Below are positions 14,605-21,387 of a DNA stretch of 64,000 nucleotides, in pieces. Within the stretch, counting starts at the first letter, position 1, and each line of letters begins with the position of its first letter. This DNA is from Candidatus Tectimicrobiota bacterium. GTDB lineage: Bacteria > JACPUC01. The stretch lies in contig JACPUC010000029.1 in assembly GCA_016192455.1 (NCBI GenBank), forward strand, positions 1 to 64,000, written 5' to 3'. The position numbers and the translations under genes are program-made. The notes beneath the pieces are model-generated. The model was not told the origin of the DNA. It was given only the letters and a program-made list of their open reading frames with translations, and did not search any database.

Positions 14605-15152
14605 GAGAGGCCGCGGCGCACCGAGCCGGCTCATGGCGAGGACCGACCGCGGAGACGCGGGGGACGCGGAGGAAGGCTGAACCACTGACGGACACGCTTG
14701 CAAGGGCCGGGGCGCCCACGGACTCCTGTTGTAGGGGCGGTTCGCGAACCGCCCTACGATGAAACGCTGGTTGGCGCGGATCGGTCTCCATCGGTGTTCA
14801 TGCGTGGGTTTGACTTCAATAAGCAGGATGTCCGTTTCACAAAAGCGATGATCCAGTGGGCGGAATGCCATGGTGACGGGCCGCGGAGAGCGGCAACACG
14901 GAGCGGAGGGTCGGAGCATTCGCAACGCCACAAGCCCCGACAACCGCGAAGGAATACCCGCGGCCTGCCTCTCGTTATCGCGGGCACAAGCGAAGCCAGG
15001 GCAGCAGGCGCCGGGGCGTGATGACCTGTCCGCCTCCGGCGCCGACCAGCCCGCGCGAGGGGACGGGTCCGCGGCAAGAGATGGGGTGGGGCCACAGGGG
15101 TTTCCGCCGGCGAGTTGAGGGAAGGCAGTTCACGAGGGAATCGGAGGGAGAC
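14605..15152. repeat. Intergenic stretch with dispersed repeats
   Basis: No gene is seen. Bases about 14646-14700 (GCGGAGACGCGG, CGCGGAGGAAG, AACCACTGA) match the repeat near 23.1 kb, and 14731-14757 is a truncated copy of the GTAGGGGCGGTTCGCGAACC hairpin found at 24.35, 31.38 and 48.99 kb. A good ribosome-binding site (GGAGGGAG) stands just before the downstream gene. Confidence 0.6.
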
Positions 15153-16523
15153 ATGCAGTACGACGCCATTGTGATCGGCTCGGGCCAGGCGGGGAAACCG
15201 CTGACCTTCAGCCTCGCCGACCGGGGCTGGAGCGTGGCGCTGATCGAGCGCGGCGAGCTGGGCGGCTCCTGCGTCAACAGCGGCTGAACGCCGACCAAGG
15301 CGATGGTCGCCTGTGCGCAGGTGGCGCACTACAGCCGCCAAGCGGCACGCTGGGGAGTGAAGACCGGAGAGGTTTCCGTTGATCTGCCGGCGGTGATGGC
15401 GATGAAGGAGCAGCTCGTGCAGCGCTTCCGCTCCGGCATCGCGGGACAGATCGAGCAGCGCGAGAACCTGCGGCTCTATCGCGGCCAGGCGCGCTTCAGC
15501 GCCGCGCACCGGGTGCGCGTGGGCGACGACGAACTCGAATCGGAGCACATCTTCATCAACACCGGCACCCGGCCGCTGATCCCCGCCATCCCCGGCTTGA
15601 ACAGCGTGGACTACCTGACGAACTGCGGCATCCTGAACCTCGCGGAGCTGCCGGAGCACCTGCTGATCATCGGCGGCGGCTACATCGGCCTCGAGTTCGG
15701 GCAGATGTTTCGGCGCTTCGGCAGCCGCGTCACCATCGTGCAGCGCCGCGGCCAGCTCGTGCCGCGCGAGGACCCGGAAGTGGCCGAGGTGCTCCAGGGG
15801 GCGCTCGAAGCGGAAGGCGTCCGCATCATCTGCAACGCCCAGGCGCGGCGCGTCGAGGGGCGCGGCGACGCCGTCAGCCTGGAGATCACGACGCCCACTG
15901 GCGAGGAGACGTTGACAGCCTCCCACCTCTTGGTGGCGGCCGGGCGGCAGCCGAACAGCGACGACCTGGGGCTCGAGGCCGCAGGGGTGGAGGTGACCGA
16001 GCGCGGCACGATTCGCGTCAACAGCCGCCTGGAGACCAACGTCCCCGGCATCTGGGCGCTCGGCGACGTGAACGGCGGGCCGAACTTTACGAACATCTCC
16101 GACAACGACTATCGCATCGTCTACGCGAACCTCATCGAAGGAGGCGAGCGCAGCACCAAGGGGCGCATCGTCCCCTACGCCATCTTCACCGACCCGCAGC
16201 TTGGGCGCGTCGGCCGCACCGAGCGGCAAGCGCGGGCGGCCGGCTATCGCCTGAAGATCGGCGGCATCCCGATGAGCTGGGTGGCGCGGGCGATGGAGCG
16301 CCAGGAGACCGCCGGGCTGATGAAGCTGGTCGTCAACGCCGAGGACGACCGCATCCTGGGCGCCGCCATCCTCGCCAGCGAGGGGGGAGAGCTGGTGCAG
16401 CTCCTGCACGCCCTCATGCTGGCCGACGCCCCGTACACCCTCCTCAAGGGCGCCATCTACATCCATCCGACGCTCGCCGAGGGCTTCTTCACCCTGATGG
16501 AGAACGTCAAGCCCGTGGACTAA
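15153..16523 (+). CDS. Candidate selenoprotein: MerA/Lpd-like flavin disulfide reductase with in-frame TGA
   Basis: A 456-codon pyridine nucleotide-disulfide oxidoreductase, group of mercuric and lipoamide reductases. The FAD-binding [11 protein letters not shown] is near the N-terminus, the NAD(P)-binding [15 protein letters not shown] in the middle, the second FAD motif [15 protein letters not shown] after it, and the dimer-interface HPTLAE at the end. The redox pair reads C40-VNSG-stop-TPTK: codon 45 (15285-15287) is TGA exactly where the family has its second cysteine, the thiol that contacts FAD. There is no other disruption, and a stem-loop follows the TGA (15298-15312). The best reading is selenocysteine insertion; alternatives are a nonsense mutation or an error changing TGC to TGA. 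The C-terminal CxxC-type extra domains of MerA are absent. The ATG follows GGAGGGAGAC. Confidence 0.8.
15298..15312 (+). promoter_or_regulatory. Putative bacterial SECIS stem-loop
   Basis: A-GGCGA-TGG-TCGCC-T forms a 6-bp stem with a small loop holding GG (15305-15306), followed by U. The stem starts 10-11 nt after the in-frame TGA and the GG lies 18-19 nt after it, close to the spacing known for the E. coli fdhF element, where a GGU in the loop contacts SelB. An alternative 6-bp hairpin (CGACCA/TGGTCG, 15292-15309) overlaps it. In a GC-rich coding sequence chance pairing cannot be excluded. Confidence 0.5.
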
Positions 16524-17596: not shown

Positions 17597-18643
17597 TCAG
17601 GACGGCTGGTTTCCGGCCGCGGCGCCGCGGCGATCCTCCGTCCCGTCGCTTCCGCCGCTCTCGGTTCCCATGGGGCGCGGCGTCGCCCGATCGTAGTACC
17701 CCGCCCAGTGCGGCGCGCTCGCCAACCCTTGCTCCTTCCAGCCGTCAACGAGCTCCCAGGCCTTGCGCCGCGACTTCGCCAGGTCCTTGGCGAGGCCGCG
17801 GAAGCTCTCCTTGTTCTCCGCCGAGAAACTGTTGAAGGGGCAGACCATGAGGCAGATCTTGCAGCCGTCGTACTTCACGAAGTAGGGGACGCAGGCGGGG
17901 GTATCGACGTGCCAGCGGCTGATGCCGTTCACGGTGCTCTTCCGCGGCACGATGGCGTCGCCGGGGCAGTGGTCGGTGCACAGGTTGCATTTCGTGCAGA
18001 AGTCATCCATGCCGAAGTCCTTGGGGCCTTCATCCACCTGCAACGGCAGGTCGGTGCTGACGGCGCCCAGGCGCAGGCTCGGCCCGAACTCCGGGGTGAT
18101 CAGCGAGCCGTGGCGGCCCAGCTCGCCGAGGCCGGCCTTCCAGGCATGGGGGATGAGGTTGAGGGCGTCGCTGTTCGTCTGCGACAGGGCGTCGTAGCCG
18201 AAACTGCGGATGTAGGCGGCCAGGCGCGTCGAGACGTCGGCCAGGCGGTAGTACACGTAGTGCACCTCGAGCTGCGAGGTCTCGCCGACGAACTTCATGG
18301 TCTCGAAGTCCATCTTGATGCCGTAGGCGATGACGTAGCGGTGCGGCGGCGGCTCGCTGTCGGTGAAGCAGTGGGCGGGGTCCATCTCGGTGATGCCCAC
18401 CACGTCGGCGCCCATGCTCTTCGCCATCGTCTTGACGTGGGCGCTCATGGCGGCGGCATCCGTGATCTCGCGCCGCGCGGGGTTCACCGGGCCCTGGCGG
18501 CGCCAGGCGGCGATGCCGTTCCAGAGCCACTGGTAGCGCTTCACCTCCTCGGTGCGATCGGCCCACTCGGGGTAGTCCTTCTCGAGCTCGTGGCTGACCC
18601 GGTTGCGCCGCGGTCGCCCGGTTGGTTTGATCTTGGTCTCCAT
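17597..18643 (-). CDS. QueG/reductive-dehalogenase-like iron-sulfur protein
   Basis: A 348-residue cytoplasmic protein related to epoxyqueuosine reductase and the catalytic core of reductive dehalogenases. It shows the family segment GLGELGRHGSLITPEFGPSL followed by RLGAVSTDLPL, then two [4Fe-4S] motifs, CTKCNLCTDHCP and a C near ACVPYF with CKICLMVCPF. It lacks the Tat signal of membrane-bound dehalogenases and the C-terminal HEAT part of QueG. A cobalamin-dependent reductase or dehalogenase-like role is suggested by fold only; the substrate is unknown. ATG at 18646 and 18643 are adjacent; the second is better spaced from GGGGGG. Confidence 0.82.
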   Translation of the reverse strand: METKIKPTGRPRRNRVSHELEKDYPEWADRTEEVKRYQWLWNGIAAWRRQGPVNPARREITDAAAMSAHVKTMAKSMGADVVGITEMDPAHCFTDSEPPPHRYVIAYGIKMDFETMKFVGETSQLEVHYVYYRLADVSTRLAAYIRSFGYDALSQTNSDALNLIPHAWKAGLGELGRHGSLITPEFGPSLRLGAVSTDLPLQVDEGPKDFGMDDFCTKCNLCTDHCPGDAIVPRKSTVNGISRWHVDTPACVPYFVKYDGCKICLMVCPFNSFSAENKESFRGLAKDLAKSRRKAWELVDGWKEQGLASAPHWAGYYDRATPRPMGTESGGSDGTEDRRGAAAGNQPS

Positions 18644-19044
18644 CATAAGCCCCCCAACGCCGGCAGTGTTCGTCATTCTCTTTTCGACGGCGCCGCGCCC
18701 CGCGTTCCCTGCCCCGCACGTCAGCCTTCCCGGCGCAAGAGCGCCGGATGAAAGACAAACGGGGTGCGCTTGACCCATGGTAGGCGTTTGGACTAGGGTT
18801 GCACGAGTCGCCCGGCATGTCAAAATACCGCGGACTGCGACGCTGCAGCCTTGTGGCCTGACACGCGGCACGACGGCAGCGGCTCCCGGAACCTCGCTGC
18901 CGGGCGGGACGGGCGGCGGCGCTCACCCTTGCATCGAGGCGGGAAGTTGCGGATGATCGTCGTGGCGCCGGAGGGGGCTGATGCTGGGGAGTGGCGGAAC
19001 GGCGGCGCCGGCGGCCCAGGGCCCAGGCTGGCGGAGGAGGCGTG
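18644..19044. other. Divergent intergenic region between QueG-like and molybdenum hydroxylase genes
   Basis: About 400 bases without a convincing gene. It must hold the promoters of two divergent operons; on the minus strand a TTGACA box lies at 18823-18818 without a clear -10 partner. Confidence 0.4.
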
Positions 19045-21387
19045 ATGGCGATGGAAGCGGGCAGCAGCGCGAAGGGGAGCTCAATCGGGCGCTCCATCCC
19101 GCGGCGCGACGGCGCCGGCAAGGTCAGCGGCAGCGCCATTTATGCCGCCAACATCGTGCGCCCGCGCATGCTGCACGCCAAGGTGCTGCGCAGCCCCCTG
19201 CCGCGGGCGCGCATCACGGCCATCGACACGTCGCGCGCCGCGAAGGTGCCCGGGGTGCGCGCCGTGGTGACGGCCCGCGACCTCCAGGCGCGCCTCGGCT
19301 GCGAGATCATCTTCGGGTCGGTGCTGATCGACCAGCCGATGCTGGCCATCGACGAGGTGCGCCACGTCGGCGAGCCGGTGGCGGCGGTGGCGGCGGAGGA
19401 GCCGGAAGCCGCGGAGGAGGCGCTGGGCCTGATTGACGTGCAGTACGAGGAGTTGCCGCCGGTGCTCAACGCGCGCGACGCCCTGGCGCCGGGGGCGCCG
19501 CTGGTGCACCAGGCCATGAACCTCTCCGGCCAATATAAGGTCTTCTTCGCCTTCAACCCCGTGGCGGGGACGAACATGTGCAACCACCACGTCATCACGG
19601 TGGGAGACCTGCAGGCGGGCTTTGCCGCCTCCGACCTCATCGTCGAAGGCGTCTACACCTCTCCCTCGACGCAGCACTGCTGCATGGAGCCGCACGCCAC
19701 GGTGGCCGAGTACGCCGGCGGCCGGCTGACGGTCTGGACCTCGTCCCAGGCCCCCTACGCGGTGCAGACGCGCCTCGGCCCCCTCTTCCACTTGCGGCCG
19801 GAGCAAGTGCGCGTCGTCGTGCACAACGTCGGCGGCGGCTTCGGCGGCAAGTCGAACCTGAAGCTCGAGCCCCTCGCCTCGGCCCTGGCGATGCTCCTCG
19901 GCCGGCCGGTGAAGCACGTCACGACCCGCCGCGAGGAGTTCTACATCACCAGCAAGCACGCCGTCGAGTACCGGGTGAAGACCGGCGTCTCAAAGGACGG
20001 CAAGCTCCTGGCGCGCCGCTGCGAGGTTCTCTACGACACCGGCGCCTACGCCGAGACCGGTCCCATCGTGTCGATGAAGTCCGGCTACACCGCCGCCGGC
20101 CCGTACGCCATTCCCAACGTGCTCATCGACATCAAGTGCATCTATACGAACAAGGTCCCCGCCGGCTCGCTGCGCGGCCTCGGCGTGCCGCAGGTGGCGT
20201 GGGGCCACGAGTCGCAGATGGACGAGATCGCCACGTGCCTGGGGATCGATCCCTTCGACCTGCGGCGGCGCAACGTCTATCCCGATGGCGGCCTCTTCGT
20301 CAGCGGCGAAAACCTGCGGCACTTCCACCTCGACACGCTGCTCGACGAGGTGGCGGCGGCCAGCGGTTGGAAGACGCGGCGGCGCGCGGCCGCCGACGGC
20401 GCGCGCCTGGCCCGCGGTTTCGGCATGGCCTGCACGATGAAGAACTCCGCCAGCCCCACCCGCAGCCAGGCGCGCATCTGGCTGAGCCCGGAGGGCGTGG
20501 CGGAGGTGCGCTCGGCCACCGTGGAGATCGGCCAGGGGGCGGGCACCGTCCTCGTGCAGCTCGCCGCCGAGAGCCTCGGCATGCCGGTGGAGCGCGTGCG
20601 GCTCGCCCTCCTCGATACCGACGTGGTGCCGTTCGACGTCGGCACCATCAGCGACCGCTCGACCTTCCACATGGGCAACGCCATCGTGGCGGCGGCGGCG
20701 GACCTGCGGCGCCAGCTCCTGGAGCACGCCTCGCGCCTGCTCGAGGTGCCGAAGGAGAACCTGGTGCTGCGGGGGGAGGCGGTCTGCGTGCTGGAGGCGC
20801 CGGAGCGCAAGGTGAGCTTCGCGGAGATCGTCAGCGCTGCGGCGCCTGAAGCGGGGCTGTTAGGGGAGGGGGAGTTCGCCACCACGTCGCGCCTCTCCAG
20901 CATCGCCGAGCAGTGCGGCGAGTGGACGACGCCGTTCTGGGACGTGGCGGCGGCGGTCGCCGAGGTGGAGGTGGACCGCGCCACCGGCAAGATCAAGGTG
21001 CTGCGCTACGTCTGCGCCGCCGACGCCGGCCGGGCGATCAACCCCGCCCTCTGCCGCCAGCAGCTTGCCGGCGAGATTCTCATGGGCATCGGCATGACCT
21101 TCCACGAGGAGATGCGCTACGAGAACGGCCAATTGATCAACCCAAGCTTCGTCGATTACAAGATGCCCTCCCTGCGGGATACGCCCCTGAGCGTGGAGAT
21201 CGTGCTCGCCGAGTCAGGACACCCCGATGGGCCGTTCGGCGCCAAGGGCATCGGCGAGGTGGCGGTGCCGCAGGTGTCGCCGGCGATCTCGAACGCCGTC
21301 TTCGACGCGGTCGGCATCCGCCTCACCGAGCTGCCGCTGACGCCGGAGCGCGTGCTGCGCGCCCTGCGGGCCGGCGCCAAGGGGTAG
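19045..21387 (+). CDS. Xanthine dehydrogenase-family molybdopterin-binding large subunit
   Basis: A 780-residue molybdenum hydroxylase large subunit. The N-terminal aldehyde-oxidase a/b hammerhead region (IPRRDGAGKVSGSAIYAANI) is followed by two molybdopterin-binding domains with VHNVGGGFGGKSNLKLEPL, a GSLRGLGVPQVAWG loop, EIGQGAGTVLVQLAAESLG and, at the end, FGAKGIGEVAVPQVSPAI, which contains the conserved active-site Glu. The GSLRG loop differs from the AYRC loop of CO dehydrogenase, so it is not CoxL. It would hydroxylate an N-heterocycle, aldehyde or aromatic substrate. It is first in a three-gene operon (large, FAD, [2Fe-2S]). The start is at the ATG after GGAGGAGGCGTG. Confidence 0.93.
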   Translation: MAMEAGSSAKGSSIGRSIPRRDGAGKVSGSAIYAANIVRPRMLHAKVLRSPLPRARITAIDTSRAAKVPGVRAVVTARDLQARLGCEIIFGSVLIDQPMLAIDEVRHVGEPVAAVAAEEPEAAEEALGLIDVQYEELPPVLNARDALAPGAPLVHQAMNLSGQYKVFFAFNPVAGTNMCNHHVITVGDLQAGFAASDLIVEGVYTSPSTQHCCMEPHATVAEYAGGRLTVWTSSQAPYAVQTRLGPLFHLRPEQVRVVVHNVGGGFGGKSNLKLEPLASALAMLLGRPVKHVTTRREEFYITSKHAVEYRVKTGVSKDGKLLARRCEVLYDTGAYAETGPIVSMKSGYTAAGPYAIPNVLIDIKCIYTNKVPAGSLRGLGVPQVAWGHESQMDEIATCLGIDPFDLRRRNVYPDGGLFVSGENLRHFHLDTLLDEVAAASGWKTRRRAAADGARLARGFGMACTMKNSASPTRSQARIWLSPEGVAEVRSATVEIGQGAGTVLVQLAAESLGMPVERVRLALLDTDVVPFDVGTISDRSTFHMGNAIVAAAADLRRQLLEHASRLLEVPKENLVLRGEAVCVLEAPERKVSFAEIVSAAAPEAGLLGEGEFATTSRLSSIAEQCGEWTTPFWDVAAAVAEVEVDRATGKIKVLRYVCAADAGRAINPALCRQQLAGEILMGIGMTFHEEMRYENGQLINPSFVDYKMPSLRDTPLSVEIVLAESGHPDGPFGAKGIGEVAVPQVSPAISNAVFDAVGIRLTELPLTPERVLRALRAGAKG

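Follow-up and report, generated by a model that had tools for sequence, protein, structure and literature searches.

Probable selenocysteine at the flavin-facing redox position of a flavoprotein disulfide reductase encoded by Candidatus Tectimicrobiota

The Gene and Its In-Frame TGA

The window described here is a stretch of 64,000 nucleotides (contig JACPUC010000029.1, positions 1 to 64,000) from a draft genome of Candidatus Tectimicrobiota (4.46 Mb, 31 contigs, 88% completeness), for which the genome collection searched contains no relative from the same phylum. A gene for a flavoprotein disulfide reductase extends from 15153 to 16523 on the forward strand, to which all features of this gene described below belong. 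Its ATG at 15153 is preceded by a Shine-Dalgarno-like GGAGG (15143–15147), recognized by direct reading of the sequence, and its frame comprises 457 codons, including the final TAA. The only internal stop, as an earlier sequence-only reading had claimed and as translation bears out, is TGA at 15285–15287 (codon 45), which falls exactly on the place of the second Cys in the redox motif CxxxxC; when it is read through as selenocysteine (Sec), the product comprises 456 residues. Since the GC content of third positions is 0.95 on the 5' side of the TGA and 0.93 on its 3' side, the frame appears to be coding on both sides.

The read-through protein is matched over its full length by the Pfam domains Pyr_redox_2 (residues 3–313) and Pyr_redox_dim (residues 340–445), so that the FAD and NAD domains, as well as the dimerisation domain, are all present. 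The redox site takes the form CxxxxU, with Cys40 encoded by TGC at 15270–15272 and the putative Sec45 in the FAD-facing, charge-transfer position, and the alignment places the motif HPTLAE close to the C terminus (residues 438–443, 16464–16481). The motifs of the family continue in frame on either side of the TGA as far as the C-terminal HPT, in agreement with the sequence-only reading. In flavoprotein disulfide reductases of the CxxxxC type, the first cysteine faces the substrate and the second one faces the flavin. We take Cys40 to be the substrate-facing interchange thiol, residue 45 to be the FAD-facing one, and the His and Glu of HPTLAE to be the active-site pair.

Comparison with Known Flavoprotein Disulfide Reductases

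A structure model calculated with Cys in place of Sec forms one well-folded unit (mean pLDDT 92.7, pTM 0.90), with a fold matching Thermus dihydrolipoyl dehydrogenase (Lpd), E. coli RclA, and Lysinibacillus MerA. The best NCBIfam match by far is NF004992 (PRK06370 FAD-containing oxidoreductase), at 559.5 bits and below the cut-off of 629 bits, which is passed by a sister Sec protein (L033, 767 bits). With members of this family, such as the protein encoded on pSymB of Sinorhizobium meliloti (UTG95439.1, L073), the window protein shares the fold, length, motifs, and HPTxxE end at ~50% identity, but they carry Cys at column 45, where the window protein would carry Sec.

The best PDB sequence match, 6kgy, belongs to the reductases of hypochlorous and hypothiocyanous acid (RclA, Har, and S. 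aureus MerA), a group which also ranks among the top three by fold and has in common with the window protein the mechanism based on CxxxxC and HxxxxE. Har combines this design with two conserved active-site lysines (PMC11107202), and its structure, together with knowledge of the family, underlies the role assigned above to HPTLAE. Only one of the two lysines is kept in the window protein (K15, the other place being occupied by Q12), which scores 400.8 bits against the RclA model, below its cut-off of 740, and differs from RclA in the predicted Sec at the second redox position. In turn, MerA (TIGR02053, 381.8 bits, below the cut-off of 454.45) shares the GGxCxNxGCxPxK site and the overall fold, but its C-terminal vicinal cysteine pair is absent in the window protein, which ends with MENVKPVD, whereas true MerA relatives (L024–L027) end with SCCA. 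Because this pair and one of the two lysines are missing, neither the name of MerA nor that of a hypothiocyanous acid reductase applies. The score for dihydrolipoyl dehydrogenase (TIGR01350) is also below the cut-off (373.8 versus 408.8 bits), and an Lpd of the Cys type is encoded separately in the genome (L047, 519.8 bits).

Among selenoproteins, mammalian thioredoxin reductase 1 is likewise a flavoprotein disulfide reductase with a Cys–Sec selenenylsulfide, as predicted for the window protein. Its Sec is the penultimate residue of the C-terminal tail, and its N-terminal flavin-facing pair is Cys–Cys, whereas in the window protein it is the N-terminal pair that would contain Sec. The CoA-disulfide reductase selenoprotein (TIGR03385) is also a pyridine-nucleotide flavoprotein in which Sec takes the place of an active-site cysteine (PMC13188914), but it belongs to another family, with the motif UGxP rather than CxxxxU, and the window protein reaches only 82 bits against its cut-off of 578.8. 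The entry NF041115 (putative mercuric reductase/metal-binding selenoprotein) resembles the window protein in name and metal context, but describes a metal-binding domain of 74 positions, which has the motif UxxU and lacks the flavoprotein redox site.

The Redox Column and Its Phylogenetic Distribution

Residue 45 is either Cys or TGA in 21 of 21 aligned proteins and residue 40 is Cys in all of them, which places the TGA at the second redox cysteine, as had been claimed. The catalytic residues are conserved on both sides of the TGA. The nearest relatives of the window protein are a Sec protein from Planctomycetota (L035, 52% identity) and a Cys protein (L021, 51–52%), and the named Cys relatives at ~50% identity come from Deinococcus, Sinorhizobium meliloti, and Skermanella. 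In the tree, Sec proteins are intermingled with Cys proteins, and well-supported branches require at least four changes; a single origin of Sec followed by several losses is possible. A contrast with the nearest Cys relative as the product of a genome devoid of Sec failed, since that genome (G072) has a very strong tRNA-Sec match (77.6 bits); no selA match was found in G072, and either selA is absent from the assembly or Sec-tRNA is made there by another route.

The same substitution was sought in 84,980 species genomes with the motif GG-[ST]-C-x-N-x-G-TGA-x-P-x-K, for which the expected number of chance matches was estimated to be well under one. Nineteen loci were found, 18 of them with a frame open on either side of the TGA, which is complete in 17 cases and cut off by the contig end in one. 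These 18 are distributed over Rokubacteria (5), Nitrospirota (6), SAR324 (2), Planctomycetota (2), Acidobacteria (1), and Ammoniphilus of the Bacillota (2), including the cultured Ammoniphilus resinae DSM 24738 (L046). A chance origin of the TGA at codon 45 is excluded, because 18 other intact frames have it at the same place. tRNA-Sec and selA are above their cut-offs in all 18 genomes with open loci; with selA present in 66 of 145 genomes of a broad sample, the probability of finding it in 18 of 18 by chance is ~7e-7 if the genomes are independent and ~0.01 if six groups are counted. Judged from these sequences, the same replacement of Cys by Sec almost certainly recurs in related enzymes of at least six other bacterial groups. 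The remaining locus, in a bin assigned to Nitrososphaerales (L030:4164–4202), has the motif with TGA, but its frame stops 39 codons later, and neither selA nor tRNA-Sec is above the cut-off in that genome; it represents either a pseudogene or a binning error.

The genome of Ammoniphilus sp. YIM 78166 (G156, L039) has two full selA and two tRNA-Sec genes, with the second tRNA-Sec located ~100 bases from the second selA. In three Nitrospirota proteins (L034, L042, and L044), the C terminus is a natural stretch of five or six consecutive histidines (as in EEKEHHHHHH), suggesting metal binding. Four Rokubacteria proteins (L028, L037, L040, and L043) have a single Cys at the third or fourth place from the C terminus (HEVCAPE, HELCEL, RDFCEP), possibly an extra redox residue.

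Selenocysteine Machinery and SECIS-Like Hairpins

The source genome encodes SelA, SelB, SelC, and SelD, all four of the genes by which the selenocysteine reading was to be checked. The selB gene (366 bits, C23:40655–42544) adjoins selA (596 bits, C23:42751–44103), tRNA-Sec has the anticodon UCA (75.5 bits), and selD (389 bits) contains a single in-frame TGA at the standard Sec position of UxxK, followed by a SECIS-like hairpin, GGGUCC-GGG-GGACCU. Since the best match to formate dehydrogenase in this genome is without an in-frame TGA, that enzyme, commonly a selenoprotein, is not what keeps the Sec trait here. Elsewhere TGA is a normal stop, used by selA and by roughly half of the long frames of the window.

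Hairpins were scored when G was within the first two bases of the loop and the loop 17–33 nt past the UGA, in comparison with 1000 synonymous recodings. The candidate SECIS hairpin of the window gene, GUCGCCUG-UGCG-CAGGUGGC (15306–15325), has an 8 bp stem, is present in the minimum-free-energy fold, and positions its loop 29 nt past the start of the UGA; taken alone, it is not significant against synonymous recoding (p 0.16) and is overlapped by a rival hairpin. Combined p values are 5e-11 for 19 Sec genes, 6e-7 for 11 representatives, and 0.007 for the clade of the window gene, and serve as guides only, as the rows are not independent. The Cys homologues show no enrichment in SECIS-like hairpins (combined p 0.96). 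The Nitrospirota Sec genes have a common hairpin, CUAUCC-GGC-GGAUAG, and another one, CCUU-GGU-AAGG, is common to several genes of Rokubacteria and to those of Ammoniphilus. In the SECIS check proposed with the sequence-only reading, such hairpins are enriched over the set of Sec genes, but the signal is weak for the window gene alone. Another hairpin, GGCGA-UGG-UCGCC (15299–15311), was first preferred as the SECIS of the window gene, its placing being that of the hairpins in selD and in Rokubacteria, and was demoted when a nearly identical sequence, due to the encoded amino acids, was seen in the Cys homologue L073.

Decoding of Codon 45

Based on the column, the Sec genes, and the recurrence, we infer that UGA codon 45 is very probably decoded as selenocysteine, which would make 15153–16523 a selenoprotein gene, in support of the central claim of the sequence-only reading. 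A decaying gene, in which the catalytic TGC or TGT has mutated to TGA, would need a single base change, and the archaeal locus L030 demonstrates that such fragments occur. This reading is nevertheless very improbable, since the TGA is followed by 411 more codons without a stop and with unchanged third-position GC, the catalytic residues are conserved on both sides, and all 18 of the other intact genes that share this codon belong to Sec-decoding genomes. Moreover, dN/dS on the 3' side of the TGA is ~0.15–0.43 in the less diverged pairs of Sec genes, indicating that these codons are under purifying selection in the Sec relatives; for the window gene itself the ratio is merely indicative, as synonymous sites are near saturation at its distance. 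Close relatives were free of other disrupting mutations, with the exception of the archaeal fragment, which is truncated and comes from a genome lacking Sec genes.

An error of sequencing or assembly, with TGC or TGT as the true codon of an ordinary Cys enzyme, would be in keeping with a draft genome in 31 contigs and with the many Cys homologues at ~50% identity, but it would have to hit precisely the codon that is TGA in 18 other genomes, and this in a genome with the complete Sec machinery, and we consider it to be just as improbable as decay of the gene. A variant code, in which the organism reads TGA throughout as an ordinary amino acid, would also leave this frame open, but it is refuted as a general reading by the TGA codons that end selA and many frames of the window, while the only in-frame TGA of selD is at the standard Sec position and the reductase frame has only one, at the redox cysteine; the chance that it applies is minimal. 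Equally negligible is a true stop followed by initiation of a shorter protein at ATG 15303, where an ORF of 406 codons begins, as its product would be devoid of both redox residues and of the entire N-terminal segment that binds FAD, parts that are conserved further upstream in this frame, behind the ribosome-binding site.

Proposed Mechanism and Gene Neighbourhood

With UGA codon 45 decoded as Sec by the genome's own SelA, SelB, SelC, and SelD, the product would be a homodimeric, NAD(P)H-dependent FAD disulfide reductase, in which a Cys40–Sec45 pair replaces the usual Cys–Cys. NAD(P)H would reduce FAD, and the flavin would then hand electrons to the Cys40–Sec45 selenenylsulfide, with Sec45 adjacent to the flavin. 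Cys40, aided by His438 and Glu443 of the other subunit, could then attack either a disulfide or an oxidant with electrophilic sulfur or halogen, and the mixed intermediate would be resolved by Sec45. It appears reasonably plausible that the enzyme serves in stress defence by reducing disulfides or electrophiles with NAD(P)H; defence against thiol or oxidant stress, as by reductases of the RclA/Har/MerA kind, is likely, and a link to metals is possible.

The neighbours in the window are a decarboxylase of the UbiD type, a substrate-binding protein resembling NMT1/SsuA, an Fe-S protein similar to reductive dehalogenases, and a subunit of the xanthine-dehydrogenase type; they have no tie to thiol chemistry, and no operon partner or neighbour indicative of the substrate was found within the window. 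The Fe-S protein (17600–18871, 130.8 bits, below the cut-off of 160.35) adjoins the xanthine-dehydrogenase-type molybdenum subunit (18991–21387). In the Planctomycetota relative (L035:85–4681), the Sec gene is followed on its own strand by genes for a MerR-like regulator, for a membrane protein of the DsbD type, and for a heavy-metal P-type ATPase that contains metal-binding domains; together they may form a metal-resistance operon. The Cys homologue of Skermanella precedes a peroxiredoxin-like gene. As pointers to function, these contexts are weak hints.

Relation to Known Selenoproteins and Significance

An inventory published in 2026 lists 119 prokaryotic selenoprotein families, with flavoprotein-like entries for CoA-disulfide reductase (UGxP), type III sulfide quinone reductase (HxxU), and HdrA (CxxU), as well as a UxxU metal-binding domain; a CxxxxU member of the glutathione/lipoamide/mercuric reductase group is absent among these families (PMC13188914), in agreement with the earlier impression that an N-terminal Cys–Sec pair was new. 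In the passages of PMC9312934, PMC2398784, PMC12013277, PMC5029168, PMC1088965, and PMC7539508 reached by term searches, no CxxxxU reductase appears. A literature search for 'CxxxxU' returned none, and papers beyond the literature searched, such as a 2026 groundwater study with a 63-selenoprotein Methylomirabilota genome, as cited in a 2026 review, could contain one. The window gene and its relatives probably represent an unrecognised recurrent class, in which the flavin-facing Cys has been replaced by Sec in several branches of CxxxxC enzymes (PRK06370-like, Nitrospirota Lpd-like, Rokubacteria, and Ammoniphilus), and which would provide the first N-terminal, flavin-proximal Cys–Sec pair.

In the textbook mechanism of glutathione, lipoamide, mercury, trypanothione, and thioredoxin reductases, two cysteines have fixed and distinct jobs. 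Natural enzymes with Sec only at the flavin-facing place would offer a direct test of its benefit there, which may lie in the strength of charge transfer, in its power as a leaving group, or in resistance to over-oxidation. The list of bacterial selenoproteins would also gain a widespread family, the genes of which would be cut at the TGA by ordinary gene calling.
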